Source: Cyanobium sp. CZS48M
GTDB taxonomy: Bacteria > Cyanobacteriota > Cyanobacteriia > PCC-6307 > Cyanobiaceae
Reading direction: 5' to 3'
Length of the DNA: 64,000 nt
NCBI GenBank assembly: GCA_030373145.1
Contig: JAUCZK010000003.1
Span: 62,001 to 126,000 of the forward strand
This document shows, one piece after another, positions 6,581 to 23,774 of this stretch (positions are counted from its first letter, which is position 1; each line of letters opens with the position of its first letter). The notes under the pieces are model-generated. The model was not told where the DNA came from. It was given only the letters and a program-made list of their open reading frames with translations, and did no database searches. The position numbers and the translations under genes were made by a program.

Positions 6581-7144
6581 CTAGCCGGCGCGAATCAGGA
6601 ACACGCCGTCTTCGCCGTCGGTCTGGCGCAGGCAGAGCTGAATCGATTCCTGGCGGTTGGTGGGCACCAGGCGGCCACAGAAATCGGGCTGAATCGGCAG
6701 CTCCCGGTGGCCACGGTCCACCATCACCAGCAGCCGCACGAGATCTGGACGCCCCCAGGTGTGCAGGGCCTCCAGCGCCGCCCGCACCGTGCGGCCGGTG
6801 AAGATCACGTCATCCACCAGCACCAGTTGGCGCCCTTCGATGTCGGAGGGCAGCTGGGTGGCCTCCACCAGGCGGGTGCCCACCCGCTCCAGGTCATCGC
6901 GGTGGAAGGTGGGATCAAGGCTGCCCTGGTCGATCGGGTGGCCGCAGAGCTCCTGCAGTTGCTCGGCCAGCACCCGGGCCAGGGCCACCCCCCTGGTGGG
7001 GATGCCCAGCAGCAGCAGCTGGCGACTGTCGATCACCCCTTCGAGCACCTGGGAGGCCAGGCGGCGCACCGTGCGGGCGAGATCGTCGGCGGAGAGGATC
7101 TCCAGCCGCCGCTGATCGGGTGACGGTGCCGTGGAAGTGTTCAC
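6581..7144 (-). CDS. pyrR: Bifunctional pyr operon regulator / uracil phosphoribosyltransferase PyrR
   Basis: 187 aa from GTG 7144 (start VNTSTAPSPDQRRLEILS); the frame is open to 7450 but upstream sequence has no family similarity and would overlap gpmI. Type-I phosphoribosyltransferase: the PRPP loop VLVDDVIFTGRTVRAAL (residues ~104-120), GIPTRGVALA (flexible loop region) and the PyrR-specific DPTFHRDDLERVGT. PyrR makes UMP from uracil and in Firmicutes attenuates pyr operons; an RNA-binding role in cyanobacteria is uncertain and I see no PyrR-type leader here. It is divergent from gpmI (142-bp gap). Confidence 0.9.
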   Translation of the reverse strand: MNTSTAPSPDQRRLEILSADDLARTVRRLASQVLEGVIDSRQLLLLGIPTRGVALARVLAEQLQELCGHPIDQGSLDPTFHRDDLERVGTRLVEATQLPSDIEGRQLVLVDDVIFTGRTVRAALEALHTWGRPDLVRLLVMVDRGHRELPIQPDFCGRLVPTNRQESIQLCLRQTDGEDGVFLIRAG

Positions 7145-7286
7145 AAGGAACGGAAGTTGGTCGATCCATCGTATGGACGCAAGAATGTTGCCAAAAGCTG
7201 ACGACCCCATTTCGCGGCCTGGATCATCGGCCTTCAGGAGTAACTTGACCCTGGAAGACGCTTGAATAACCATTCGGGAAGTCAGG

Positions 7287-8951
7287 GTGAGCGCAAATCC
7301 CAGCTCCGGATCTCCGACCCTTCCCTCCGGTCGGGAATCAGCTTCGAGTCGCTTGCGCGACGGAGCGATTCCCCCCGTGGTGCTGACCATTCTTGATGGC
7401 TGGGGCTTTCGTGAGGAGGCACGGCATAACGCTATCCAGGGGGCGAGCACGCCGGTGATGGATGCCCTCTGGGAGGCCTATCCCCACACCCTGATCCAGG
7501 CCAGCGGCGGAGAGGTGGGTCTGCCCGACGGCCAGATGGGCAATTCCGAGGTGGGCCATCTCACGATCGGCTCCGGCCGGATCATCCGTCAGGAGCTGGT
7601 GCGGATCGGCAAGGCCGTGCGCGACGGCAGCCTGGCGGCCAATCCGTCCCTCAACGAGCTGGCGGATCGGCTGCTGCGCGATGGCGGCACCCTGCATCTG
7701 CTCGGACTGGGCTCCGATGGCGGCGTTCACAGTCACATCGACCACATCGGTGGGCTGCTGCAGTGGGCCGCCAGCCGAGGCCTCAGCGACATCTGCCTGC
7801 ATGTGATCACCGACGGCCGCGATACGCCCCCCCAGAGCGCCATCTCCTACCTGGAGTCCATCGCAGCCCAGGTGGAGGCCGCCGGGGTCGGGCGGATCAG
7901 CACCATCTGTGGCCGTTACTGGGCCATGGACCGCGACAACCGCTGGGAGCGCACCGAAAAGGCGTACCGCCTGCTGAGCGAGGAGGGCGAGATCAGTTCC
8001 CTCTCCTTCCAGGAGGCGATCGAAGCGGCCTACGCCGACGGCATCAACGACGAATTCCTGGAACCCCTGCGGCTGGCACCCGGCGTCCTCAAGCCCGGCG
8101 ATGGCTTGATCTGTTTCAACTTCAGGCCCGATCGGGTGCGCCAGCTGATCCGCTCCCTGGTGCTCGACGACTTCGACCAGTTTGAGCGCCAGCGCATCAG
8201 CCCCCTGCATGTGGTCACCTTCACCCAGTACGAACTGGGCCTGCCCGTGGCGGTGGCGTTTCCGCCGGAATCCCTCGATGGCCTGCTCGGTCAGGTGGTC
8301 TCCGCCCACGGACTGCGCCAGCTGCGCACGGCCGAAACCGAGAAGTATCCCCACGTCACTTACTTCCTCAACGGTGGCATCGAACAGCCTTTCCCCGGTG
8401 AAGATCGCCACCTGGTTCCATCCCCGCGCGTCGCCACCTACGACCAGGCCCCGGCCATGTCTGCCGACCAGCTCACCGACAACTGCATCGCCGCCCTCAA
8501 CAAAGGCGTGTATTCCCTGGTGGTGATCAACTATGCCAACCCCGACATGGTGGGGCACACCGGCCGGATGGACGCCACCCAGCAGGCCATCGCCACCGTG
8601 GACCACTGCGTCGGCCGCCTGGTGGAAGCCACCAATCGCCTGGGCGGCACCCTGCTGATCACCGCTGACCACGGCAATGCCGAGCTGATGGAAGGGGAGG
8701 ATGGACGCCCCTGGACCGCCCACACCACCAACCCGGTGCCGGTGATCCTGGTGGAAGGCGAAAAGCGCAAGCTCGGAGGCCATGGGGCCGCTCCCCAGCT
8801 GCGCCAGGGTGGCGGCCTGGCCGACATCGCCCCCACCCTGCTGCAGATCCTGGGGCTGCCCCAGCCAGCGAGCATGACGGGCACCTCCCTGGTGGAACCC
8901 CTGAACCTGATCAGCCCCCCGGCCACCTTCGCCGCAGCCGTCAAGGCCTGA
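7287..8951 (+). CDS. gpmI: 2,3-bisphosphoglycerate-independent phosphoglycerate mutase
   Basis: 554 aa with a GTG start preceded by CAGG. It interconverts 3- and 2-phosphoglycerate in glycolysis and carbon partitioning. The alkaline-phosphatase-type core is complete: metal-binding [11 protein letters not shown] (~33), phosphoserine motif [12 protein letters not shown] (~78), the long phosphotransferase insert ([24 protein letters not shown]) and C-terminal metal ligands [16 protein letters not shown] and TAHTTNPVP. The N-terminal ~30 residues are Ser-rich and not conserved, so an internal start is possible. secG follows 21 bp downstream and may share the transcript. Confidence 0.96.
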
Positions 8952-8972
8952 GCCGTTCGTTAGGTTGGCTGA

Positions 8973-9203
8973 ATGCTCACCACTGTTCTCTCCTGGATCT
9001 GGTCGGCCATCGGCCTGTTGCTGATCGGTAGCGTGCTGTTGCACAGCCCCAAGGGCGATGGCATGGGCGGCCTGGCCAGCAGTGGCGGCTCCATGTTCAG
9101 CAGTGCCCGCAGCGCCGAGGACACCCTCAACCGCATCAGCTGGACGCTGCTGGGCCTGTTCCTCGCCCTGGCCGTGGTGCTCAGTGCCGGCTGGTTGCGC
9201 TGA
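8973..9203 (+). CDS. secG: Preprotein translocase subunit SecG
   Basis: 76 aa. Two hydrophobic helices (residues ~5-22, LSWIWSAIGLLLIGSVLL, and ~55-73) flank the conserved SecG loop HSPKGDGMGGLASSGGSMF, whose Gly-rich GGLAS-GG pattern is the family signature. SecG assists SecYE in export across plasma and thylakoid membranes. It follows gpmI closely, an arrangement I believe is common in picocyanobacteria. Length is normal. Confidence 0.95.
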   Translation: MLTTVLSWIWSAIGLLLIGSVLLHSPKGDGMGGLASSGGSMFSSARSAEDTLNRISWTLLGLFLALAVVLSAGWLR

Positions 9204-9277
9204 GGCGACTGAGGCGGCCTGGTCCGCACAGCTGTCCAGCTCGCGAGCTCGCTTTCCCTTCGTCTCCGTTCCCGCCT

Positions 9278-9766
9278 GTGGATCCGATCAAACGCCGCGG
9301 ACTGCTCTCCTCCCTGGCCGTGGTGCTGGGCGCGGTCTGGGGAGGTGCCAGAGCCGAGGCGGCGTCCAAGGCCGCCGATCCCAGCTGGCAGCTCAGTGAC
9401 AGTGAATGGCGCAAGCGCCTGAGCCCCGCCGCCTACAACGTGCTGCGGCGCGAAGGAACTGAACGCCCGTTCAGCAGCCCCCTCAACAGCGAGAAGCGCC
9501 AGGGAACCTTCCTATGCGCCGGCTGCCGCCTGCCCCTGTTCAGCTCTTCGGCGAAATTCGAGAGCGGCACCGGCTGGCCCAGCTTCTTTCAGCCCCTGCC
9601 CGGTGGGATCGTCACCAAAACCGACTTCAAATTGCTGGTGCCCCGCACCGAATACCACTGCCGCCGCTGCGGCGGCCACCAGGGTCACGTCTTCAACGAT
9701 GGGCCCCGGCCCACAGGCAAGCGCTACTGCAACAACGGCGTGGCCCTCGACTTCAAGGCCGGCTGA
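9278..9766 (+). CDS. msrB: Exported peptide-methionine (R)-S-oxide reductase MsrB
   Basis: 162 aa from GTG 9278. N-terminus DPIKRRGLLSSLAVVLGAVWGGARAEAAS is a signal peptide with adjacent arginines before the hydrophobic stretch (Tat-like, lacking a full S-R-R-x-F-L-K) and an A-x-A type cleavage site around residue 28. The MsrB domain follows: zinc ligands CAGC and CRRCGGHQGHVF, substrate strand TGWPSFFQP, and resolving/catalytic Cys in RYCNNGVALDF. MsrB repairs methionine-R-sulfoxide using thioredoxin; the export signal implies action in the periplasm or thylakoid lumen. 74 bp after secG. Confidence 0.92.
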   Translation: MDPIKRRGLLSSLAVVLGAVWGGARAEAASKAADPSWQLSDSEWRKRLSPAAYNVLRREGTERPFSSPLNSEKRQGTFLCAGCRLPLFSSSAKFESGTGWPSFFQPLPGGIVTKTDFKLLVPRTEYHCRRCGGHQGHVFNDGPRPTGKRYCNNGVALDFKAG

Positions 9767-9861
9767 AGCCCCGCGACCGGCGGGATCGGCCCAGGCCCAG
9801 AGCCCCCGGATCAAGGCAGCAACGATCAGGCGCCCTGAACAGCAGAAAACCTGAACAGCAC

Positions 9862-9885
9862 AAAAAAAGGGGGGCTGTGCCCCCC
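9862..9885 (-). terminator. Rho-independent terminator of groES-groEL
   Basis: Read on the minus strand, a 7-bp perfect stem GGGGGGC / GCCCCCC with a 3-nt loop is followed by seven T residues. It lies 59 bp beyond the groEL stop codon at 9944. The A-run is on the plus strand side at 9862-9868, so polarity is unambiguous for the minus-strand operon. Confidence 0.92.
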
Positions 9886-9943
9886 TCTGCTGGGATCGAT
9901 CCGGATGGATGGCGGAGCGGTTTGAGCGCTCCGCCGCTGGGGA

Positions 9944-11596
<1,653 letters not shown>

Positions 11597-11677
11597 CTAA
11601 GGGGACGAGGATGAATTGAAGGGTAACCAGATCTCCGAAGGTTGGAGAATCTGACATCGCCGATCAACAAGCGGTGC

Positions 11678-11989
11678 TCAGTTGACGATCGCGAGGATGT
11701 CTTTCTCGGAGAGGAGAACGAACTCGTTGCCGCCGAGCTTGATGTCGGTGCCGGCGTACTTGCTGTACAGAACCTTGTCGCCCACGCTCACTTCGGGAGC
11801 CTGGCGGGTCCCGTCGTCACTGCGCTTGCCGGGGCCGACCTGCACCACCTCACCCACCTGGGGCTTTTCCTGGGCGGTGTCAGGCAGAAGGATGCCTCCA
11901 GCCGTCTTTTCGTCCGAATCGGACACCTTAATGAACACGCGGTCCCCAAGGGGTTTGACCGTGGAAACGCTCAGAGAAACAGCAGCCAT
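11678..11989 (-). CDS. groS: 10 kDa co-chaperonin GroES
   Basis: 103 aa from ATG 11989 ([19 protein letters not shown]); the longer frame to 12049 would run into the CIRCE element and is rejected. All family marks are present: [10 protein letters not shown], the mobile loop [12 protein letters not shown] that binds GroEL, and the C-terminal strand [26 protein letters not shown]. First gene of the groES-groEL operon. Confidence 0.97.
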
Positions 11990-12042
11990 GAATCCATGCA
12001 AATGCGACAAAGTGACGCCTGCGGCGCCACGACAACGGCGAG

Positions 12043-12069
12043 TTGGCACTCGGGCCCGTTGACTGCCAA
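12043..12069 (-). promoter_or_regulatory. CIRCE operator (HrcA-binding inverted repeat) upstream of groES
   Basis: TTGGCACTC at 12043-12051, exactly 9 bp, then GACTGCCAA at 12061-12069. This matches the CIRCE consensus TTAGCACTC-N9-GAGTGCTAA at 15 of 18 positions with the invariant N9 spacing, and the two arms are complementary at 8 of 9. It ends 53 bp upstream of the groES start, where the HrcA repressor would block transcription until heat stress. hrcA itself is not in the window. Confidence 0.85.
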
Positions 12070-12259
12070 CTTAGGCCAAGCGCCTGCACCTCTGCCATCC
12101 GATCCCTGTGCGGGTCACCGAACCTGCCCAGTCAGTTCCCACCGCCAGCCGCCGTGGCCTTGACGGACAGGCGGCGGCCTCAGTGGAGCTGGCATGGGGG
12201 AGTGGTAAGGTTGCGCCGCTTAAGGCGGGGTGCACCCGCTGCGCGAACCCTTTTCTTGA

Positions 12260-13741
<1,482 letters not shown>

Positions 13742-13779
13742 GTTCCACCATCCCATCCCCTTCCTGAGCACCCGTCACC

Positions 13780-14187
13780 ATGACTCTCAACCTTCGCGTT
13801 CTGGCTCCCGACCAGAGTGTCTTCGACGGCACTGCCGATGAGGTGATCCTGCCCAGCACCTCCGGCCAGGTGGGCATCCTCACCGGCCATGTCTCGATGC
13901 TCACGGCCCTTGATGTGGGCGTGATGCGCCTGCGGGCCGGCAAGGACTGGACCAGCATCGCCCTGATGGGTGGCTTTGCCGAAGTGGAGGCCAATGAGGT
14001 CACCGTGCTGGTGAACGGTGCCGAGCTGGGCTCACGCATCGACGCCGGCAAGGCCGAGCAGGAGCTGGAGCTGGCTGAGCAGAAGGCAGCCGGATTTGAA
14101 GGGCAGCCCGCCAGCACCGAAAAGGTCAAGGCTCAGCAGGACCTGGCCCGCTCCCGCGCCAGGCTCCAGGCCACCAGAGCCAACTGA
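13780..14187 (+). CDS. atpC: ATP synthase F1 subunit epsilon
   Basis: 135 aa. N-terminal beta-sandwich with MTLNLRVLAPDQSVFDG, the conserved LPSTSGQVGILTGHVSMLTAL, and a C-terminal helical hairpin (AGKAEQELELAEQKAAGF... KAQQDLARSRARLQATRAN) that can inhibit rotation. It follows atpD by 38 bp and precedes the transaldolase-family gene by 16 bp. Confidence 0.96.
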   Translation: MTLNLRVLAPDQSVFDGTADEVILPSTSGQVGILTGHVSMLTALDVGVMRLRAGKDWTSIALMGGFAEVEANEVTVLVNGAELGSRIDAGKAEQELELAEQKAAGFEGQPASTEKVKAQQDLARSRARLQATRAN

Positions 14188-14203
14188 GGCGGCGGGGCTC
14201 TGC

Positions 14204-14878
14204 ATGAGCCTGCGATTCTTTCTCGATTCGGCCGATCCTCTCGACTGGGAGGAATGGATGTCCACTGGGTTTTTCCACGGCATCACCACCAATCCCACGC
14301 TGCTGCGACAGGCCGGCCAGGTCTGCAGCGTCTCTCACCTGCGCTCCCTCAGCCGGCGGGCCCTCGATTTCGGCTGCCAGGAGCTGCATCTGCAGGCCTG
14401 GGGGCGCGAGCCCGAAGCGCTGCTGGATTGCGCCCTGGCCCTCGCTGAGCTGGGCCCGGGGCAGATCACCATCAAGGTTCCGCTCACCAGGGCCGGCACC
14501 ACCGCGGCGACGGCGCTGATCGCCCGCGGCATTCCGCTCACCTTCACCGCCTGCTACGAAGCCCCCCAGGTGCTGGTGGCCGCAGCCCTCGGCGCCCGCT
14601 ACGTCGCCCCCTACCTGGGCCGCATCCAGGACCTGGGCCGGGATGCGGCCCAGGAGCTGATCACGATGCAGCAGTGCGTGGATCACAGCGGCTCGAGCCT
14701 GAAGCTGCTGGTGGCCAGCCTGCGGGTCACCGGCGACCTCAGCCGCCTGGCGGCGGCCGGGATGACCACCTTCACCCTCTCCCCCCAGCTGGCGGCGGCC
14801 CTGTTCAGCTGCGAGGCCAGCAACGCCGCCGCGGCCCGCTTCGACGCCGATGCCGACGCCACCCTGGTGCAGCAGTGA
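14204..14878 (+). CDS. Transaldolase family protein (fructose-6-phosphate aldolase / TalC-like)
   Basis: 224 aa from ATG 14204. Small TIM-barrel transaldolase: start RFFLDSADPLDWEEW, active-site strand GITTNPTLLRQ (~28), ITIKVPLTRAGTTAATAL with the Schiff-base lysine in IKVP (~91), TFTACYEAPQVLVAAALGARYVAPYLGRIQDLG. Size matches the ~220-aa FSA/TalC subgroup rather than the ~330-aa housekeeping transaldolase. Substrate (fructose-6-P or sedoheptulose-7-P) cannot be decided from sequence. Its stop overlaps the GTG of the next gene by 4 bp. Confidence 0.88.
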   Translation: MSLRFFLDSADPLDWEEWMSTGFFHGITTNPTLLRQAGQVCSVSHLRSLSRRALDFGCQELHLQAWGREPEALLDCALALAELGPGQITIKVPLTRAGTTAATALIARGIPLTFTACYEAPQVLVAAALGARYVAPYLGRIQDLGRDAAQELITMQQCVDHSGSSLKLLVASLRVTGDLSRLAAAGMTTFTLSPQLAAALFSCEASNAAAARFDADADATLVQQ

Positions 14879-16008
14879 GCAGCAAGGGACAGGAACTCGG
14901 TCTGCAGCTGAGGGCCTGGCACAGGGCCGGCACCCCGGGACTCAGCAACGGCAGGGCCATCGCCAACCGGCTGGTGGATCTGCTCGGGGCCGAGGAGCGC
15001 CTCAAGGGCCCTGTGCGCGATCTGGCCGACCAGCCCCTGCTGCTGCGGGCCCTCCAGGAGAGCGGCGCCGGCCGCAGCACCTCCGTGCAGCTGCTGGCCG
15101 AGCAGCTGGGCAGCACCTATGCCCCAGCCGTGCTGGAGGAACTGCTCGATCTGCTGGAGGCGGCCACGGGGGTGACGATCACCCGGCCCCAGGGTCCTGG
15201 GCCCAGCGCTGGCTCCGCCGCCGCCCAGAGGCCTGAGCCGCAGTCGGCGGGGCGGTCGCTGGGGCACTCGCTGCGGGCCATGGGCCCAGGAGTGGCCCTG
15301 GCGGCGGGCGCGGCTCTTGTGCTGCGCTGGCTCAGCGGTGAACTGGACCGCTGGCTGTTCCGGTCGTGGGGCTGGCAGGGCTGGCTGGTGCTGGCGCTCA
15401 CCCTGGCACTGCTGCAGGCCCTCAGCCTCGGCCCGCTGAAGTGGACACGGCGCCAGTGGCCCCTGGAGCAGGCCGATGCCAGCGAACCCCGCCAGGCCTG
15501 GCGCTGGATCACCGCCCCCTGGATCCACCACAACCCCCTCGAAGCGGTGCTGAATGTGGCGCTGCTGCTGCTGATCCTGAGGGCTCCCTCACCGCTCCCC
15601 CTGGCCGATGTGGTGCTGCGCTACACCCTCACCAGCCTGGCCACCACGGCCCTGGCGCTGCTGGTGGCGGAGCGGCGCACCGGCGAGCGGCGCTGGGATG
15701 GGGCCGCCGGAGCGGTGAGCGCCCTGATCGGCCTGGCGGCCGGGTCCAGCCTGCTGCACTGGCGTGCGCTCTCCTTCAACCTGGGCCCGATCGAGATTCC
15801 CAGCTGGGTGCTGCTGCTGGTGTACGGCGCCCTGCAGCTGGGCTGGCAGCTGCCCCGCCAGAGCGAGGACGATGACAGCCGCCCCCTGGATCGCCTGCTC
15901 AGCAGCCAGTGGTGGTGGGGCCTGGCACTGGGGGTGGCCTGGGCGCTGGTCAACCGCTTGGACACCCTGCTGCAGCTGGCTCTGAAGGCGAGGGGAGCCG
16001 GGGGCTGA
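14875..16008 (+). CDS. Rhomboid-like integral membrane protein without the catalytic serine (predicted pseudoprotease)
   Basis: 377 aa from a GTG overlapping the transaldolase stop. Residues 1-130 are soluble and helical; residues ~137-370 hold six or more membrane segments. WRWITAPWIHHNPLEAVLN (209-227) resembles the rhomboid TM2 loop with its H-x4-H-x3-N spacing, here H218-x4-Glu223-x3-Asn227. The TM4 GxSG position reads GAAG (276-279), with Ala where the nucleophile should be. I see no TM6 His-x-x-Gly. If homologous to rhomboids it is catalytically dead. Family call is from motif spacing only; it could be an unrelated membrane protein. Confidence 0.6.
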   Translation: MSSKGQELGLQLRAWHRAGTPGLSNGRAIANRLVDLLGAEERLKGPVRDLADQPLLLRALQESGAGRSTSVQLLAEQLGSTYAPAVLEELLDLLEAATGVTITRPQGPGPSAGSAAAQRPEPQSAGRSLGHSLRAMGPGVALAAGAALVLRWLSGELDRWLFRSWGWQGWLVLALTLALLQALSLGPLKWTRRQWPLEQADASEPRQAWRWITAPWIHHNPLEAVLNVALLLLILRAPSPLPLADVVLRYTLTSLATTALALLVAERRTGERRWDGAAGAVSALIGLAAGSSLLHWRALSFNLGPIEIPSWVLLLVYGALQLGWQLPRQSEDDDSRPLDRLLSSQWWWGLALGVAWALVNRLDTLLQLALKARGAGG

Positions 16009-16057: not shown

Positions 16058-18295
16058 CTACCCCGCACTGATCGCGGCCATGTAGCGCCCCCACAGCTCG
16101 GCCACCAGGGCGCCGCTGGCCGCCTGGGCCGGCCGGTTGTCGTCGTTGCCCATCCAGATGGCGGTGAGGATCTCCAGCGATGGGGAATAGCCGATGAAGA
16201 GCACGTCAACGCCGTTGTCGGTGGTGCCGGTCTTGCCGCGGCCATCGGCCACCACCGCCGCCGCCCGGCCCGTGCCGCTGCGCACCACCGCCGCCAGCAG
16301 ACCGTCCATCACGGCGGCATCGCTCTCGCGCAGCAGCTGGCGGGGCTGCTCACCGATGGGGGTGGTCACCCCCCGCTCCGGGCAGGTGGCGAGGCTGTAG
16401 ATCGAGCGGCAGATGCCCAGGTCGTAGATCTTGCTGACGCCATGCATCGGCACGCTGCGGCCCCCGTTGGCCACCACGGCATAGGCCCGGGCCAACTCGT
16501 AGAGCAGGGTTTCACGGCCGCCGAGCATGGTGTTGAAGTCGGCGTCGAGGGGGGTGCTGATCCCCAGCTGACGGGCCTTGCGCACCACCTGCTTCAGGCC
16601 GGCTTTCTGCGCCAGGCGCAGGGCCACCACGTTCTCGGAATCGGCGAAACCCCGGGCCACACTGATGCTGCCGCTGCCACCACCGCCATGGCGACAGCCG
16701 GCCACGTAGGAGAGGGGGGCACAGGAGATGGCCTCCTCGGGGCTGGTGCCGGCCTCCAGCGCCGCCAGGTAGGGGAAAAGCTTGAAGGTGGAGCCGGGCT
16801 GGCGCAGGGCCTGGACACGGTCGAAGCTGGAGCGGGAATAATCACCGCCACCCACATAGGCGAGGATCTTGCCGCTGCGGTAATTGAGCGAGATCAGGGC
16901 CCCCTGGGTGAGCCCCACCCCCGCGGCTGGCCCCTCAAGGAAGCGCTGCAACTGCTGCTGGGCGAGCTGCTGCAGCTTCGGATCGATCGTGCTCACCACG
17001 TAGTAGTTGCCGCCTGAGGTCTTCTGCGAGAGGTTGAGGCCGAAGCGGGTGCCCTCCAGCTCGCCAAGCACGTAGTCGCTGAAGAAGGGATAGCTGGAGA
17101 AGCTGGAGTCGCGGCAGGCCGAAGGATCGATGTTGAGGGGTCGCCGCTGGGCATCGATCAGTTGCTGATCGCCCAGATAGCCCTGCTCATGCATCAGCTT
17201 GAGCACCAGGTCGCGGCGCTCACGGCCGGCGGTGGGATCCTTGGTGTTGCAGGGGCTGTAGCCATTGGGGCTGGGCAGCAGGCCCACCAGGAAGGCCGCC
17301 TGTCCCACGTCGAGATCCGTGGCCGACTTGCGGAAATAGAGCCTGGAGGCCTGCTCGAAGCCATCGGTGCCGAGGCCCAGATGGGCCCGGTCGAGGTACA
17401 TCTTCAGGATCTGGTTCTTGCTGTAGCCCACCTCCAGCTGCAGGGCCACCCACAGCTCCCGCAGCTTGCGGCTGAGGCTGTAGTCGGTGCCCACTTCGGG
17501 GTAGTAGATGCGGGCCACCTGCTGGGTGAGTCCGCTGCCGCCGCCGCTGCCCAGCAGCACCGAGCGCATGGTCCCAAACAGATCGACCCCGCTGTTCCAG
17601 CCGAAGCGCGCCTCCTCCGAGGCCATCAGCGCCTGGCGCAGGTGCAGGGGATAGGCCTGCAGGGAGGGCAGAGCGGTGGCGGAGCCCTCCTTGGCGTCAA
17701 TCTGCTGACCGGAGGACGAGACGATCTTCACGGAGCCCGAGATCAGGCGAATGCGTGAGCCACCACCGACGGAGGAGACCAGCAGCAGACCGCCCACCAG
17801 CAGTCCGGAGCCCAGCAGGCTGCCCAGGCCCAGCAGGTGCAGGGCCTGCTCCAGCGGGCTGCGGAAGTGCAGGTAGCGCAGGCGTGGAGCCGATCCCCTG
17901 AGCGGCGAGCCCAGCTGCACCTGATCGCCATGGCGCAGGCGGATGGAGCGGATGCGGCGGTCACGGTGGAAGAGGCCGTTGGCGGAGTTGAAGTCTTCGA
18001 GGGCGAAATCGCGCTCGCCGGGGCGCGGCTTCTCCAGGATCGCGTGCACACGGCTGAGGCTCTCCGCCTCGATCGGCAGCTCACAGGCTGGATCGCGGCC
18101 GATGCGGTAGCGCCCCTCCGAGAGCACGGTACGGCTGATCCGCCGCTCCCCGAGCCAGAGCTCCGCCACGGCCTGGCGTTCCAGCAGCTGGCCCCACGCC
18201 AGGCGAATGGCGGCGGGGCGCCCATCGGGCCCTCCACGCCTCCAGGCGGCCAAGAAACGGCGCCAGGCGCTGCCTGGAGTGGACGGCTCGACCAT
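16058..18295 (-). CDS. FHA domain-fused class A penicillin-binding protein (glycosyltransferase 51 + transpeptidase)
   Basis: 745 aa. Order: cytoplasmic FHA domain (~60-142) with YRIGRDP, SRVHAI and NSANGLF phosphopeptide-binding motifs; one transmembrane helix (~150-175); GT51 domain with SEEARFGWNSGVD (catalytic Glu ~227) and SGLTQQVAR; transpeptidase domain with Ser502-Thr-Phe-Lys505, Ser553-Glu-Asn555 and Lys688-Thr-Gly690. All catalytic residues are present, so it should polymerise and cross-link peptidoglycan in the periplasm, while its FHA head faces the cytoplasm and could read phosphothreonine. It is divergent (56-bp gap) from the kinase/phosphatase cluster. Confidence 0.92.
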   Translation of the reverse strand: MVEPSTPGSAWRRFLAAWRRGGPDGRPAAIRLAWGQLLERQAVAELWLGERRISRTVLSEGRYRIGRDPACELPIEAESLSRVHAILEKPRPGERDFALEDFNSANGLFHRDRRIRSIRLRHGDQVQLGSPLRGSAPRLRYLHFRSPLEQALHLLGLGSLLGSGLLVGGLLLVSSVGGGSRIRLISGSVKIVSSSGQQIDAKEGSATALPSLQAYPLHLRQALMASEEARFGWNSGVDLFGTMRSVLLGSGGGSGLTQQVARIYYPEVGTDYSLSRKLRELWVALQLEVGYSKNQILKMYLDRAHLGLGTDGFEQASRLYFRKSATDLDVGQAAFLVGLLPSPNGYSPCNTKDPTAGRERRDLVLKLMHEQGYLGDQQLIDAQRRPLNIDPSACRDSSFSSYPFFSDYVLGELEGTRFGLNLSQKTSGGNYYVVSTIDPKLQQLAQQQLQRFLEGPAAGVGLTQGALISLNYRSGKILAYVGGGDYSRSSFDRVQALRQPGSTFKLFPYLAALEAGTSPEEAISCAPLSYVAGCRHGGGGSGSISVARGFADSENVVALRLAQKAGLKQVVRKARQLGISTPLDADFNTMLGGRETLLYELARAYAVVANGGRSVPMHGVSKIYDLGICRSIYSLATCPERGVTTPIGEQPRQLLRESDAAVMDGLLAAVVRSGTGRAAAVVADGRGKTGTTDNGVDVLFIGYSPSLEILTAIWMGNDDNRPAQAASGALVAELWGRYMAAISAG

Positions 18296-18351
18296 GCGGA
18301 GCTGAACAGGCAGGCCCTGGGGATACGCTACGCGCAGCGATCTCCCCGCCC

Positions 18352-18627
18352 GTGCTGAGCCAGCGCGATCCCTGGGAGCCCTTCAGGCTCTGGCTGGCCA
18401 TCACGATCGGGCTCTATGCGATCCGGGCCAGTTTTGCCGCCACCTGGGTGGGGGCCATTCCCGGCTGGGTGCTGCTGGTGATGGTGCTGGTGGCCCTGCT
18501 GCTGGCCAGCAAGGCCCTGCTCTTTCCCGGCCGGGTGACCCCGCAGCGCACGGGCGATGGTGGCTGGTGGAGCGACCTGCAGGACGACTGGCGCCTGTGG
18601 TGGCGCCGCCGCCGGGGCAACCCATGA
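18352..18627 (+). CDS. Small two-helix membrane protein, first gene of the kinase/phosphatase cluster
   Basis: 91 aa from GTG 18352. Two hydrophobic helices (LWLAITIGLYAIRASFAA and GWVLLVMVLVALLLASKALLF) and a strongly basic, Trp-rich tail DDWRLWWRRRRGNP that should sit in the cytoplasm. No family recognised. It overlaps the following FHA gene by 4 bp (ATGA), which makes it a real member of the operon rather than a chance ORF. Confidence 0.72.
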   Translation: MLSQRDPWEPFRLWLAITIGLYAIRASFAATWVGAIPGWVLLVMVLVALLLASKALLFPGRVTPQRTGDGGWWSDLQDDWRLWWRRRRGNP

Positions 18628-19340
18628 CCCCACCTCCAGCCCAGCTGCGCCTGCGGGATCAGCCGGACAAGCTGGCCCGGCTCGATCCCACCCGGCCCCT
18701 GACGATCGGACGGGAGGGCAACAACCGCCTCTGCATGCCTGAGCAGCTCGGGCTCTCCCCCCACCACGCCGTGGTGCGCCACTCCAGCAGCCACCAGAGC
18801 TGGGTGGTCTGCGACTGGCAGAGCGTCGATGGCACCTTCCTGCGCGGGGAGCGTCTGCAGCAATGCCGGCCCTTGGCCGATGGCGATGAGATCCGGCTCG
18901 GGCTGCGTGGTCCAGTGCTGATCTTCGAGCTCACCGCTGCGGCCCCCGCGGTTCAGCCAGCGGCCCGGGCGGCAGCGGCGCCAGCGGCCCAGCCGGCGGC
19001 GGCAGCGGTCAGCAGCCTCGACATCGCTGGCCAGCAGATCCCCCTGGAGCAGATCCGATCGGCCACGGTGCAGAGCCGGCCCCGCCACCCCCACATCTTC
19101 AGCTGGTGGCTGCTGGTCTGCCTGGGCGGTCTGCTGCTGCTGCCGTTCCCCGTCCTGTTCTGGCCCCTGGAACTGGCGGCCCTGGCCGGCTGGATCCTGC
19201 TGGGCTCCCGCAAGGAGCACACCCTCACGGTGGTGCTGCGGGATGGCCGCGCCCAGCGCCGCAGCTTCGCCAACCGGCTCACGGCCCTCTCCCATCGCAA
19301 CGGGATCCGCAAGGCCATCGGCCAGAGTCTGGAGGCCTGA
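18624..19340 (+). CDS. FHA domain membrane protein
   Basis: 238 aa from the ATG that overlaps the previous stop. FHA domain at ~15-103: LTIGREGNNRL, LSPHHAVVRH and SVDGTFLRGERL correspond to the GR, SxxH and S-x-N/D-G-T loops that bind phosphothreonine (the usual Asn is Asp here). A Pro/Ala-rich linker (~105-135) leads to two adjacent hydrophobic helices (~152-190) and a C-terminal basic tail. It would present its FHA domain at the membrane, beside a Ser/Thr kinase encoded 19 bp downstream. Confidence 0.88.
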   Translation: MTPPPAQLRLRDQPDKLARLDPTRPLTIGREGNNRLCMPEQLGLSPHHAVVRHSSSHQSWVVCDWQSVDGTFLRGERLQQCRPLADGDEIRLGLRGPVLIFELTAAAPAVQPAARAAAAPAAQPAAAAVSSLDIAGQQIPLEQIRSATVQSRPRHPHIFSWWLLVCLGGLLLLPFPVLFWPLELAALAGWILLGSRKEHTLTVVLRDGRAQRRSFANRLTALSHRNGIRKAIGQSLEA

Positions 19341-19359
19341 ACGCCGAAGCCAGCCCTCC

Positions 19360-20694
19360 GTGACCTGGATCCTGCCGGAAGGCGCCAGCCTTGATCTGGA
19401 GGGGATCTCCAGCCCACTGCAGGTGCTGCGCGGGCTCGGTGGCGGCAGCCAGGGCCAGGTGTTTGAGGTGGAGGTGGCCGGCGAGCGCCTGGCCCTGAAG
19501 TGGTATCTGCCGGCCTGCATCGCCCGCGATCCCCACCTGAAGCGGCGCCTGGGCGAGAGCATCCGCGCCACCGCCCCCAGCGAGGCCTTCCTCTGGCCCC
19601 TGGCCCTGGTGACGCCCGGCCCTGGCGCCTTGCCGCTGCTGCGGCTCGGCGAACCGGGCTTCGGCTATCTGATGGAGCTGCGGCCGCCGGGGTTCGTGGG
19701 GGCCCATGAGCACGTAGGCGGCCACCTGGCCATCGGTCTTCTCCAGGTGCTGCGGGCCAGCTTTTCCCTGGCTGAGGCCTTCCATGCCCTGCACCTCAAG
19801 GGCCTCTGTTACAAAGACATCTCCCTGGGCAACCTGTTCCTTGAGCCCTCCAGCGGCCGCATCCTGATCTGCGACAACGACAACGTGGATGTGGATGGGC
19901 GGGATCTGGGCAGCGTGCTCGGCACCCCGGGATTCATGGCCCCGGAGATCCTGATGGGCCGGGCCCGGCCGGGGGCCAACAGCGACCTCTTCTCCCTGGC
20001 GGTGCTGATCTTCCGCCTGCTCACCCGCCACGATCCGCTGCGGGGCCGGAGGGAGCTGGTGATCCGCTGCCTGGATGAGCCCGCCCGGCGCCGTCTCTAC
20101 GGCGAAGACCCCCTGTTCATCTTCGATCCGGTGGATGCGAGCAACCGCCCCGATCCGATCGAGCACGCCGCGGCCCTGATCACTTGGCCGATCTACCCCG
20201 AGCCGATCCAACGGCTGTTTGAGCAGACCTTCTGCGCCGGGATGCAGGAACCCCAGCTTCGGGCGCTCACCGGCCAGTGGATGGCGGCCCTGGCCGCGGC
20301 CCTCGACCAGCGTCAGCTCTGTGGCTCCTGCGGCCAGGAAACCTTCCCCGCTCCCAGCGAACCGGCCCCCCTGTGCTGGAGCTGCGGCTGCCCGCTGCCC
20401 CCCCCCACCAGGCTGCGGCTGCCCCACGGCCTGGTGACGGCGGCGGCCGGCAACGAGCTGCATCCACACCACTTCGATCGCCTCCTGAGCCTGCGCCTGG
20501 ATCAGCCCCTGGCCCGGGTGGAGGCCCATCCCAGCGCTGGCGGCCTGCTGGGGCTGCGCAACCTCAGCGACCAGGCCTGGCGGGCCGAGCTGAACACCGG
20601 CCAGCAGCTGGTGCTGGGGCCGGGACAAGCCTGTAATCTCGCGCCACTGGTGCGGCTGATCACGCCGTCCGGAGCGGTCGAGCTGCCCTGCTGA
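19360..20694 (+). CDS. Ser/Thr protein kinase with C-terminal zinc ribbon (TerY-P-triad type)
   Basis: 444 aa from GTG 19360. Kinase fold: Gly-rich loop LGGGSQGQVFEV (26-36), ALKWY with Lys47, catalytic loop YKDISLGNLF (Asp153, Asn158; Tyr-Lys-Asp in place of His-Arg-Asp), CDNDN (171-175) at the DFG position, and GTPGFMAPEI (APE). After the kinase domain come two CxxC pairs, Cys321/324 and Cys339/342, forming a probable zinc ribbon, then a beta-rich C-terminal domain (LARVEAHPSAGGLLGLRN). Catalytic Lys and Asp are kept, so activity is plausible. The DFG change is unusual. Confidence 0.88.
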   Translation: MTWILPEGASLDLEGISSPLQVLRGLGGGSQGQVFEVEVAGERLALKWYLPACIARDPHLKRRLGESIRATAPSEAFLWPLALVTPGPGALPLLRLGEPGFGYLMELRPPGFVGAHEHVGGHLAIGLLQVLRASFSLAEAFHALHLKGLCYKDISLGNLFLEPSSGRILICDNDNVDVDGRDLGSVLGTPGFMAPEILMGRARPGANSDLFSLAVLIFRLLTRHDPLRGRRELVIRCLDEPARRRLYGEDPLFIFDPVDASNRPDPIEHAAALITWPIYPEPIQRLFEQTFCAGMQEPQLRALTGQWMAALAAALDQRQLCGSCGQETFPAPSEPAPLCWSCGCPLPPPTRLRLPHGLVTAAAGNELHPHHFDRLLSLRLDQPLARVEAHPSAGGLLGLRNLSDQAWRAELNTGQQLVLGPGQACNLAPLVRLITPSGAVELPC

Positions 20695-20716
20695 GCCCCC
20701 CTCGAGCTTGGATCCG

Positions 20717-21499
20717 ATGCCCTTCCCCAACGTCAGGCTCGCCAACCGGCCGCTGCACTTCATCTACATCTGCGATTGCTCCGGCTCGATGGCGGCCCAG
20801 GGCAAGATCCAGGCCCTGAACCAGGCCATTCGTCAGTCGTTGCCGGGTATGGCAGAGGTGGCCCGCCAGAACCCGGAGGCGCGGGTGCTGGTGCGGGCGG
20901 TGAGCTTCGCCGACCGGGCAGCCTGGCACCTGCAGCAGCCCACGGAGGTGCAGCAGCTGCAGTGGCTGGATCTGCAGGCCGGCGGCATCACGGCCATGGG
21001 CGAAGCGCTGGAGCTGGTGGCGGCGGCGCTGCAGTCGCCGCCAATGGAGGAGCGGGCCCTGCCGCCGGTGCTGGTGCTGATCTCCGACGGCCAGCCCACC
21101 GACGACTTCGACGCCGGCCTGGCGGCGCTGATGCGCCAGCCCTGGGCCCAGAAGGCGGTGCGTCTGGCGATCGCCATGGGCCACGACGCCGACACCGAGG
21201 TGCTGCAGCAGTTCATCGGCAGCGATCCGGGCGGCGGACTGCCTGCCGGAGAAATCCCCGGCGCCAGCGGCCGGAAGCCCCTGCACCGCTCCGGCCGCTC
21301 GCCCAGGCGCCCCCTGCAGGCCAGCAATGCCACGTCCCTGGCCCAGTACATCCAGTGGGCCTCCACCGCCGTGGTGGGCGCCGCCTCAATGCCAGCCAGT
21401 CGGATGGCGGGCTCGGGGCCCCAGGCCAACATCCCCCTGCCGGATCTGCCCCCCACCTTGATGGATCTCACCGACGACGTCGGTCCCCTGGTGTGGTGA
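20717..21499 (+). CDS. von Willebrand factor A domain protein (TerY-like)
   Basis: 260 aa from ATG 20717; a TTG at 20708 would add three residues. MIDAS metal site is complete: DCSGSM (Asp20-x-Ser22-x-Ser24), a Thr in GGITAMGEAL, and ISDGQPTDDF. This is the TerY type of soluble vWA domain, used as a metal-dependent protein-binding module. The last ~70 residues (GASGRKPLHRSGRSPRRP onward) are low-complexity and basic. Its stop overlaps the GTG of the PP2C gene by 4 bp, tying the two together. Confidence 0.88.
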   Translation: MPFPNVRLANRPLHFIYICDCSGSMAAQGKIQALNQAIRQSLPGMAEVARQNPEARVLVRAVSFADRAAWHLQQPTEVQQLQWLDLQAGGITAMGEALELVAAALQSPPMEERALPPVLVLISDGQPTDDFDAGLAALMRQPWAQKAVRLAIAMGHDADTEVLQQFIGSDPGGGLPAGEIPGASGRKPLHRSGRSPRRPLQASNATSLAQYIQWASTAVVGAASMPASRMAGSGPQANIPLPDLPPTLMDLTDDVGPLVW

Positions 21500-22779
21500 T
21501 CGGCTGGTGCCCGCCGCTGCAGGCCCGGCGCATCGGGGCGGCCCACCAGCGCCAGGGCCGCCCCTGCCAGGACGCGGTGGCCGTCGCCCAGTGCCGCAGC
21601 CACGACGGCCAGACTGCGCAGGTAATGGCCGTGGCCGATGGCCACGGCGGTGAGCGTTATCCCCTCAGCGACGTGGGCAGCGCCCTGGCCTGTGAGCAGG
21701 CGCTGCTGGCGGTGGAGGAGCACCTGGGCGCCACGGCCCTGGGAGGGCCCCAGGCACCCGACCTCGACGCCTGGACCAACTGGCTGGCCACAGGGCTGCC
21801 CGAACAGATCCACGGCCGCTGGCTGGCCCTGGTGCGGAACCACTGGCAGCAGCAGGCCAGCCCCCCCGAAGCCGAGGTGCTACGGCTCTATGGCACCACC
21901 CTGGGGTTGGTGGTGATGACTCCCAGCTGGTGGGGGTACACCGGTCTGGGCGACTGGGACCTGGTGCGCCTGAACGCTGATGGGCCGGCGGAGCTGCTGA
22001 GCGAGGAGCCGGCCGAGGTGGGCAGCGGCGAAGCCACCGGCAGCCTCTGCCTGGAGCAGGCCGCCCAGCTGTTTCGCAGCGGGCTCCTGCCGATCGAGGC
22101 CCCGGGAGCCCGTTTCGGGCTGATGCTCAGCACCGATGGCATCCGCAAGTCGTGCGCCACCGACACGGATTTCCTGGTGCTCGCCGCCCACCTGATCGCC
22201 ACCCCCACCGCCGGCGCCAGCGAGGCACTGGCGGCCAATCTGGAGCAGATCACCAGCGAGGGCAGCGGCGACGATGTGTCGGTGGCGATGGCCCTGCATG
22301 GCAGCTTCGACCCCACCACAGAGCTGCCGGCTGCTGTTGAGCGCCCCCCCGAGGCCAGGAGCCTGCCGGCCCTGCTGCCGGCGCTGCTGGGGGGCCTGCT
22401 GCTGCTCAGCACCGGCGTCGGTGCCAGCTGGTACTGGCTGCAGCAGCGGGACCTGCTGCTGCAGCAGGCTGAGGCCGTGCGCCGCCAGAGCCGCCAGCTC
22501 TGCGCGGGCCCACCCGGCGCCATCGCCGGCACCCTCAGCAGCAGGCGCAGCCAGTTCATGGGTCTGCTCCAGGGACGCCTGAAGGCCGCGCCTCTGCTGG
22601 CCGCGGCCGAACTCGATCCCCTCGGGGCCCTGATCGCCAGCAGCTTCGATCCCGCCAGCGGTGGGATGGTGCAAGGGCAGGCCCTGAGCGCCCTCGGCCT
22701 CTGCCCGCTACTCCTGGCTGCCTTGCAGCGCCAATGGCGAGCCACTCCCACCCCCATCCCTGATCCCCCCGCCCGATGA
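21496..22779 (+). CDS. PP2C family Ser/Thr phosphatase with membrane anchor
   Basis: 427 aa from GTG 21496. PP2C metal-binding motifs: AVADGHGGERYP (Asp-Gly-His-Gly-Gly), GYTGLGDWDLV, MLSTDGIRKS and GSGDDVSVAMA (Asp pair). After ~285 residues there is one transmembrane helix (LPALLPALLGGLLLLSTGVGASWYW) and ~115 residues probably on the other side, with LCAGPPGAIAGTLSSRRS. It should dephosphorylate the products of the adjacent kinase. Start and stop both overlap neighbours by 4 bp, so it sits in a translationally coupled chain. Confidence 0.9.
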   Translation: MIGWCPPLQARRIGAAHQRQGRPCQDAVAVAQCRSHDGQTAQVMAVADGHGGERYPLSDVGSALACEQALLAVEEHLGATALGGPQAPDLDAWTNWLATGLPEQIHGRWLALVRNHWQQQASPPEAEVLRLYGTTLGLVVMTPSWWGYTGLGDWDLVRLNADGPAELLSEEPAEVGSGEATGSLCLEQAAQLFRSGLLPIEAPGARFGLMLSTDGIRKSCATDTDFLVLAAHLIATPTAGASEALAANLEQITSEGSGDDVSVAMALHGSFDPTTELPAAVERPPEARSLPALLPALLGGLLLLSTGVGASWYWLQQRDLLLQQAEAVRRQSRQLCAGPPGAIAGTLSSRRSQFMGLLQGRLKAAPLLAAAELDPLGALIASSFDPASGGMVQGQALSALGLCPLLLAALQRQWRATPTPIPDPPAR

Positions 22780-23774
22780 ACGACCACCAGCTTGGAGTCG
22801 CCCTCAGGCAGCAGGTGCTCAGCGACCTCCAGCAGGGCCGAGGGACCGAGGGTCGCCGCCTGCAGGCGCTGGCCGGCGATCTCTGCGGCGAAGAGCAGCT
22901 CAAGCTGCTGCCGGCCCTGCGTCATCTGCTGCTCTCGGCCGCCTTCGCCAGTGCGGTCAGCCAGAGTCCGCCCCTGGGCGGTTCGCGGCTGCAGCCCCGG
23001 CTGATGCAGGAACTGGAGGAGGTGTTCAACCCCACCATCTGCCAACGCATGGAGAGCGTGGTGGAAGGCCTGCTCGGCCAGTCGCTCGCCCAGGCCAGGG
23101 ACTCCGTTTCAGAGCCAGCGCCAGCACAGCTGGCGCCCAGACCCGCGCCGGCGCGCGCCACTCCCAGGCCAGCAGTGCCAGCTCGTGCACCTCGACCAGC
23201 GCCAGCCAGCCGAGGCGGGGGCAATAATGCTCTGCTCAGTGGTCTCGCCTTTCTGAGCGGCGGCCTGGCGGTGGCCCTGGTGGGCGCCGTGCTGCTGCTG
23301 CGGCAGTCGCCCCCCAGCAGCGTGGAGATCCCCTCCACCCCCGGGCCCAGGGCGGTGGCGCCAGCCCCCAGCGCGAAACCGCTCGCACCACCCCAGCAGC
23401 CGAACCTGCCGGAACCGGAGCCCATCACCCCGCCGCAGCCGCCAGCCGCCAACACCGACCAGGCGATCGCCGCCGTGGAGGGCCTCTACGCAGCCCTCAG
23501 CGGCAAGTCGTACGGCCAGGCCCGCCGCTTCTTCGGGGGCACGGCGGCCGATCAGTTCGATCCCGCCTTCTTCAACCAGTTTGAGCGGGTGAGCGTGGCC
23601 GATCTGCGCGAAACCGGCCAGGAAGGCTCCATCGTCTCCCTTCAGGGGGTGGTCACCTTCGCCTACCCCGACGGCAGCGTCCAGAGCGAAAGTCGCCGCT
23701 TCAGCGTCGACACCGCCAGCACCCCTGCCCTGATCACCGCCAGCGAGTTCGGGGGGGTGATCAAGGCCCGCTGA
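22776..23774 (+). CDS. Membrane protein with Pro/Ala linker and C-terminal NTF2/ARC6-like domain; last gene of the cluster
   Basis: 332 aa. N-terminal ~95 residues are helical and cytoplasmic ([25 protein letters not shown]); a Pro/Ala/Arg-rich linker (~113-145); one transmembrane helix (LAFLSGGLAVALVGAVLLL); a Pro-rich stretch; then ~105 residues (AIAAVEGLYAALSGKSYGQARRFF...) resembling the small alpha-beta domain often found at the C-terminus of cyanobacterial Ser/Thr kinases. That likeness is by eye. It starts with a 4-bp overlap with the PP2C gene and ends 13 bp from the convergent PSRP-3 gene. Confidence 0.72.
   Translation: MNDHQLGVALRQQVLSDLQQGRGTEGRRLQALAGDLCGEEQLKLLPALRHLLLSAAFASAVSQSPPLGGSRLQPRLMQELEEVFNPTICQRMESVVEGLLGQSLAQARDSVSEPAPAQLAPRPAPARATPRPAVPARAPRPAPASRGGGNNALLSGLAFLSGGLAVALVGAVLLLRQSPPSSVEIPSTPGPRAVAPAPSAKPLAPPQQPNLPEPEPITPPQPPAANTDQAIAAVEGLYAALSGKSYGQARRFFGGTAADQFDPAFFNQFERVSVADLRETGQEGSIVSLQGVVTFAYPDGSVQSESRRFSVDTASTPALITASEFGGVIKAR

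Follow-up and report, generated by a model that had tools for sequence, protein, structure and literature searches.

A TerY-P-type kinase–vWA–phosphatase triad co-inherited with an FHA-tagged penicillin-binding protein in Cyanobium and its relatives: a putative phospho-switch for cell-wall synthesis

The window analysed here, a 64,000-nucleotide stretch of the Cyanobium sp. CZS48M genome (contig JAUCZK010000003.1, positions 62,001 to 126,000), contains six genes, g1 to g6, that encode a Ser/Thr kinase (g3), a TerY/YegL-like vWA protein (g4), a PP2C phosphatase (g5) and three flanking proteins. To judge by sequence, the core g3–g4–g5 is a genuine TerY-P-type triad, and it is inherited together with a neighbouring, divergently transcribed gene for a class A penicillin-binding protein (PBP) tagged with an FHA domain, hereafter PBP-c. 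We consider it fairly likely that the whole forms a portable unit of phospho-signalling that serves a peptidoglycan synthase, in which a TerY-P triad has been rewired to wall control. This reading draws on the co-inheritance of the genes, the mobility of the unit, FHA residues kept in 46/46 proteins, a census of FHA domains, a single PP2C of the PF13672 type and a mycobacterial precedent. A preliminary description of the six genes, made from this DNA alone, had proposed a link to the envelope; that link is stronger than could be told from the DNA alone.

Presence of the kinase, the vWA protein, PBP-c and g1 was scored in a family sample of 251 genomes. The kinase occurs in 47 of these and the vWA gene in exactly the same 47; PBP-c, among the matches listed, occurs in 46 and g1 in exactly those 46, so that g1 is confined to PBP-c genomes, and all four genes are found together in 45. 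None of the four is scattered in the family sample; scattered triad homologues would have told against the preliminary description, and kinase and vWA instead share one and the same set of genomes, so that it withstands this test within the sample. Carrier genomes hold one kinase each, apart from two that are split over contigs. The exceptions are few: G060 (Prochlorococcus sp. MIT 0701) and G148 (AG-412-I05) possess the triad with PBP-c, g1 and g2 absent, and in G252 the contig ends just after g2, for which reason the genome is scored as kinase-negative. G210 seems truly to lack the unit: the genome is 99% complete, and TAL and PSRP3 have nothing of it between them. G266 was considered as a second such case and rejected: it retains a g6 fragment at a contig end beside PSRP3, which probably reflects an assembly gap, although the counts still score it as lacking each of the four genes. 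A Fisher value of 4e-46 for the overlap ignores relatedness and is not relied upon. The distances of PBP-c and kinase correlate at 0.87, and at 0.84 once PSRP3 is partialled out, a value that none of 2000 permutations reached (39 loci, namely the 42 with a full gene set minus L076, L086 and L090, which have no PSRP3); PSRP3 being a short marker, we take this as supporting and not as decisive.

Gene order was compared in 49 fetched loci, drawn from the 46 carriers besides the window's own genome and from G252. PBP-c and g1 are divergent in 45/45 loci that hold both, and g1 and g2 overlap by 1 or 4 bp in 45/45. Kinase and vWA genes, and likewise vWA and PP2C genes, are same-strand neighbours in 46/46 loci that hold the respective pair; the kinase–vWA junction lies within -12 to +30 bp in 38/46, and the vWA–PP2C junction does so in 46/46, with an overlap of 1 or 4 bp in 42/46. 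Since these junctions recur across 49 loci from other genomes, the arrangement is not due to chance. The unit has also moved. In G130, G167 and G188 it lies far from the PSRP3 locus or on another contig and has retained its divergent PBP-c, and the original site in G188 is empty, the rhomboid-like gene ending about 290 bp from PSRP3. All six unit genes compared in G130, PBP-c included, are nearest to the genomes of one other genus and PSRP3 is not, which suggests that the unit was transferred as a block. The names PSRP3, HAD and KaiB/KaiC-like are readings of translations and not results of a family search; with that proviso, the relocated unit of G188 (L092, 13705-17281) adjoins PAS sensor-, KaiB-like and KaiC-like genes.

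PBP-c matches the Pfam families Transgly (1.7e-40), Transpeptidase (5.8e-22) and FHA (1.3e-14). The residues that we take to bind phosphothreonine in FHA domains (G-R, S-x-x-H and N-G, thus G, R, S, H, N, G) are invariant in 46/46 PBP-c proteins. The catalytic residues checked in the glycosyltransferase and transpeptidase domains are likewise kept in nearly all; departures are limited to a single K-to-R change, E or D at one position, and gaps that affect one or two proteins. The corresponding phosphothreonine-site residues of g2 are conserved less strictly (R 39/46, S 39/46, N 17/46), and g2 of the window has R and S with D in place of N. The preliminary description had cast the cluster's own FHA protein as the reader of the phospho-mark; since its binding residues erode in many members and those of PBP-c are invariant, g2 is probably not the main reader. 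The claim that the set spanning 18352-23774 is self-contained also needs revision, for the co-inherited FHA-PBP sits outside it, at 16058-18295. Three FHA domains exceed the Pfam cut-off in the window genome, two of them on PBPs and one on g2. The second FHA-PBP (G000:C1:81946-84153) is 42% identical to PBP-c, and such a paralogue (about 40-46% identical) is found, among the matches listed, in genomes with and without the cluster; the two types were separated by an identity threshold of our choosing, at least 55% for PBP-c and at most 46% for the paralogue. The start of PBP-c is 56 bp from g1, and scans of the divergent region 18296..18351 for sigma-70 promoters and terminators gave no match.

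In the mechanism that we favour, the kinase, complexed with the vWA protein, would dock at the membrane on g2 and g1, with vWA, g1 and g2 together assembling the complex there, and would phosphorylate one or more threonines on itself or on g1, g2 or g6. The canonical FHA domain of PBP-c would bind this phosphothreonine, whereby the synthase would be placed or activated at the complex. The PP2C phosphatase, with a C-terminal part predicted on the far side of the membrane, would answer an envelope cue by erasing the mark, and PBP-c would be released; we infer, in other words, that the kinase makes the phosphothreonine read by PBP-c and that PP2C reverses it under its extracytoplasmic part. The unit would thereby switch an extra, conditional wall synthase on and off, and the paralogous FHA-PBP encoded elsewhere would perform routine synthesis.

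Several observations weigh against wall control as the output. G060 and G148 carry the triad without PBP-c, g1 and g2, and its function can therefore involve other partners. The Pkinase matches of the window genome, four in number with three above the Pfam cut-off, include other kinases that could feed the FHA domains of the PBPs, and both the phosphothreonine ligand of PBP-c and the link between kinase and PBP-c are predictions. The rhomboid-like gene and PSRP3 both flank the unit in 34/49 fetched loci, so that part of the adjacency is explained by synteny alone, and PSRP3 is a slow as well as a short marker. Finally, a simple hydropathy test of the copies in other genomes finds at least one transmembrane (TM) segment in 31/46 PP2C, 27/28 g6, 8/48 kinase and 0/46 vWA proteins, which leaves 15/46 phosphatases with none and 8/48 kinases with one.

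In a different account, the triad is a general switch for envelope or metal stress and PBP-c is only one client, or a neighbour that shares a promoter region, the real outputs lying elsewhere. It fits the intact triad without PBP-c in MIT 0701, close to an FHA-FHA-ABC transporter, a Zn-peptidase and trypsin-TPR proteins; the triad of a Bryobacterales metagenome-assembled genome (MAG), which is accompanied by a PrsW-type protease and another predicted TM protein; and the metal binding implied by the zinc ribbon and the metal-ion-dependent adhesion site (MIDAS), the latter being the sole pointer to metal dependence of the vWA protein. A mere client is harder to square with a kinase in 45 of the 46 PBP-c carriers, the 46th being the truncated contig, with the retention of PBP-c in the relocated units, and with the location of two of the genome's three FHA domains on PBPs. 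We regard the stress switch as unlikely, though not remote, and retain control of the wall synthase as the preferred reading.

The layout of the unit is given in Table 1. All six open reading frames (ORFs) of the cluster described earlier are present on one strand, with spacings of -4, +19, +22, -4 and -4 bp; the junctions had been called tight, as they are, and given these spacings all five are so rather than four. We chose the start codons ourselves (GTG for the kinase and PP2C, ATG for vWA). In the window copies, simple hydropathy predicts one clear TM segment each in g1, g2, PP2C, g6 and PBP-c, and none in the kinase or the vWA protein, which agrees with the earlier account of flanking membrane proteins, and of an FHA protein and a PP2C both anchored in the membrane (the latter in 31/46 copies elsewhere, as given above).

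Table 1. Features of the PBP-c/triad unit and its flank (positions within the window)
Feature	Position	Strand	Description
Rhomboid-family gene	14674-16008		Upstream of PBP-c; syntenic in most carrier loci; outside the moving unit
PBP-c	16058..18295	-	Bifunctional class A PBP (GT51 and transpeptidase domains); FHA domain at the N-terminus (17909-18109); transcribed away from g1
Divergent intergenic region	18296..18351		56 bp, between PBP-c and g1
g1	18352..18627	+	Membrane protein of 91 aa; one TM segment is clear and a second possible; no family match
g2	18624..19340	+	FHA domain (18702-18902) and TM segment; C-terminal half weakly DUF6232-like
g3, Ser/Thr kinase	19360..20694	+	Zinc ribbon ~20320-20385; C-terminal FHA-fold domain ~20392-20691 (probable, degenerate)
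g4, TerY/YegL-like vWA	20717..21499	+	MIDAS intact: D20, S22, S24, T92, D124
g5, PP2C phosphatase	21496..22779	+	One TM segment; C-terminal part predicted extracytoplasmic
g6	22776..23774	+	N-terminal domain of ~100 aa, linker rich in Pro, a single TM segment and a conserved domain at the C-terminus

Pfam assigns g2 to FHA (1.1e-12), g3 to Pkinase (1e-13), g4 to VWA (1.1e-7) and g5 to PP2C_2 (PF13672; 5.1e-24). The zinc ribbon reported for the kinase holds across the family, its cysteines 321/324/339/342 being invariant in 21/21 aligned kinases, as are the catalytic K47, D153, N158 and D172. The MIDAS residues of the vWA protein are invariant in 20/20 aligned proteins, YegL and that of G043 included, and its best identity to plasmid vWA proteins is 51% (best 15 of 2241 plasmid records). 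The window PP2C bears a DGHGG motif and is the sole match in its genome to PF13672, the one PP2C family searched. A PHROGs search returned a generic kinase match only. Gene content, zinc ribbon, MIDAS, operon structure and homology to ter-plasmid and Escherichia coli YegI/PphC/YegL proteins thus bear out the likeness to a TerY-P triad that had been noticed at the outset. The earlier picture of writer and reader is incomplete in one respect, for behind its zinc ribbon the kinase probably has an additional domain with a degenerate FHA fold. The model of this C-terminal domain has a mean pLDDT of 92 (the whole-kinase model is of low confidence at residues 177-212 and 222-275); VIA gives a best Z of 8.5, middling by the tool's scale, with nearly all 50 listed rows FHA and row 33 a clear exception, and Foldseek a best E of 0.03 with none at 0.001 or better. 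The Pfam scan found no FHA match on this domain.

The flanking proteins are less easily placed. Pfam finds no family in g1 or g6, and g2 relatives have an FHA domain in 28/28 members scanned with weak DUF6232 similarity in 8/28. The earlier inclusion of g6 as a membrane protein of the cluster stands as regards its TM segment; its membership is less constant, the gene being present in 28/46 fetched loci with PP2C, a count that includes a doubtful call in L100 overlapping the PP2C call by 1062 bp, and some of the remaining loci end at contig ends. A VirB8/NTF2-like signal at the g6 C-terminus is weak (3/21 members, best E 0.0056), and a profile comparison relates g6 to the Prochlorococcus protein L088:6643-7386 (75%, E 2.5e-5). 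The roughly 100-aa N-terminus of g6 was considered as the adaptor domain of the Methylomonas cargo and of the Bryobacterales TM protein described below; the alignments are co-linear, yet their probabilities are only 5% and 2%, and that of whole g6 against one Methylomonas cargo protein is 0.1%, so a shared adaptor domain is not claimed.

Named carriers of the unit or its triad include Synechococcus sp. WH 5701, Vulcanococcus limneticus, Cyanobium and Aphanothece strains, Prochlorococcus sp. MIT 0701 and AG-412-I05. A scan with two peptide patterns, which reaches close relatives only, yielded 60 loci, of which 57 are cyanobacterial by name, one is a Bifidobacterium MAG and two are MAGs (Holophagales and Bryobacterales) at 39% identity. 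The cyanobacterial kinase encoded by the MAG labelled Bifidobacterium breve (L126, 69% identical) probably stems from a stray contig or binning error. Family-type kinases (E <1e-200) occur in 6 of 292 genomes of a phylum sample, all from the same family as the window genome, and distant kinase matches in 11 others (best 3e-29).

The triads outside the unit have other company. The MIT 0701 triad (L088, 3347-15200) has none of PBP-c, g1 and g2 beside it. The 7 kb or so upstream encode an ABC transporter fused to two FHA domains, a Zn-peptidase, a trypsin-TPR protein, a DUF2939 protein and a protein resembling g6, and another trypsin-TPR protein is encoded downstream; the transporter, the peptidase and the two trypsin-TPR proteins we read as an alternative envelope or secretion cargo. 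This FHA-FHA-ABC protein resembles Rv1747 of the Rv1747/PknF system of Mycobacterium tuberculosis, reportedly an ABC transporter that likewise has two FHA domains; the kinase there is a different one, and the window has no such transporter. In the Bryobacterales MAG (L162, 406-7206) the order is PrsW-type protease, TM protein, vWA, PP2C and kinase, and protease and kinase have related C-terminal domains (95%, E 2.6e-8). The kinase of the Holophagales MAG (L160, 173-6307), 39% identical to that of the window, lies upstream of ATPase-like and recombinase-like genes (by translation), and the 7.5 kb examined, which starts near the kinase gene, contains no vWA or PP2C. A wider proposition, which we hold only tentatively, treats TerY-P-type triads as portable phospho-switches that FHA tags direct to membrane effectors. 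In freshwater picocyanobacteria the effector would be a peptidoglycan synthase, in Prochlorococcus MIT 0701 an FHA-ABC exporter, and in an acidobacterium an intramembrane protease of PrsW type, tied to its kinase by the FHA-fold domain that both would have.

If the unit does control wall synthesis, it would be the first TerY-P-type triad with cell-wall synthesis as its output. Such triads are widespread, and a version locked to a wall synthase offers a concrete, testable output as well as a possible reason for the FHA domains on cyanobacterial class A PBPs. Signalling genes otherwise known from metal-resistance and phage-defence loci are here inherited with a wall enzyme in small freshwater cyanobacteria. 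Among the papers listed by a literature search, thin on subscription journals, none deals with FHA domains on cyanobacterial class A PBPs or with a role of TerY-P triads in the wall synthesis of cyanobacteria, and a 2007 survey of cyanobacterial kinases omitted WH5701 (PMC2176072).

The definition of the TerY-P triad is reportedly due to Anantharaman et al. in 2012. It comprises a TerY-like vWA protein, a PP2C-like enzyme and a kinase with a C-terminal zinc ribbon, and a later study calls such triads hypothesised metal-sensing, phosphorylation-dependent switches (PMC11090510). The window operon has every one of these components; it differs in that no Ter, McrBC or nuclease partner was found, in its extension by g1, g2 and the FHA-PBP, and in the domains themselves, for the vWA protein has no TerY_C domain, PP2C has a TM segment and the kinase a probable FHA-fold domain after its zinc ribbon. 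According to that study, TerY-P triads accompany CoCoNuT systems and versions with an OB-fold act as stand-alone defence (PMC11090510), which raises the prospect that the unit, like many TerY-P triads, is an anti-phage or conflict module. Further hints in that direction are a vWA-kinase-helicase-like set in another cyanobacterium (G043; L045, 5960-12187), which has the look of a conflict system, a vWA-PP2C-kinase-AAA set on a Rhodoferax plasmid, a weak match of g4 to the PADLOC TerY profile (E 1.1e-3) and a DEAD-box helicase-like ORF, seen in translation, beside PBP-c in G092 (L095, 1566-4418). Yet a Pfam scan of the six genes and three neighbours (PBP, rhomboid-like, transaldolase) shows no family of nucleases, helicases or restriction enzymes; the single kinase per carrier genome, the flanks shared in 34/49 loci and the wall synthase as partner also speak against a defence module, which we judge very improbable. 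Still harder to credit is a tellurite- or metal-resistance (Ter) system. The window kinase does match an Enterobacter ter-plasmid kinase that lies beside TerX/TerY/TerE/TerF (E 3e-17; best 15 of 2316 plasmid records), yet the neighbouring plasmid vWA protein carries TerY_C at 9.9e-54, whereas this metal-binding domain (PF15616) is absent from g4 up to E 0.1 by Pfam. The earlier remark that no TerC or TerD gene lies nearby extends, for TerD, to the whole genome (0 matches, with positive controls in Bacillus subtilis and Deinobacterium; no search for TerC was made).

Also comparable are the plasmid operons of Methylomonas sp. AM2-LC (L174) and Prevotella E2-28 (L175), which share the order kinase-vWA-PP2C and near full-length kinase similarity (38% and 30%, best 15 of 2316 plasmid records) and differ by other cargo downstream, with no PBP among their annotated or scanned proteins. 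In Methylomonas (7001-14430) the triad is followed by five genes with a common domain of about 100 aa, four of which have Sel1, Tim44-like, Clp_N or ClpX zinc-finger parts. The E. coli YegI-PphC(YegK)-YegL proteins are homologous (kinase 2e-9, vWA 6e-5, PP2C 3e-4), although YegI is longer and without one of the four ribbon cysteines, and no FHA or PBP gene is annotated in the 17 kb examined. YegI is described as a membrane-bound autophosphorylating kinase that PphC dephosphorylates (PMC13232886).

The functional parallel is mycobacterial. By Pfam and hydropathy the window kinase has no PASTA domain and no TM segment; the mycobacterial locus features a membrane PASTA kinase and a class B PBP. 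Besides the sole Ser/Thr phosphatase, its operon comprises fhaA, fhaB, rodA, pbpA, pknA and pknB (PMC11898655). In both cases a kinase and a Ser/Thr phosphatase are encoded together with an FHA protein and a PBP; the mycobacterial FHA domains are on separate proteins, whereas the cyanobacterial one is fused to a class A PBP, and here the kinase is of TerY-P type with an added vWA protein. The comparison suggests that cyanobacteria and actinobacteria brought their wall synthesis under Ser/Thr phospho-control independently of each other, starting from different kinases, and we infer that the window unit would work like the PknAB/FhaA/PbpA locus, built from other parts.

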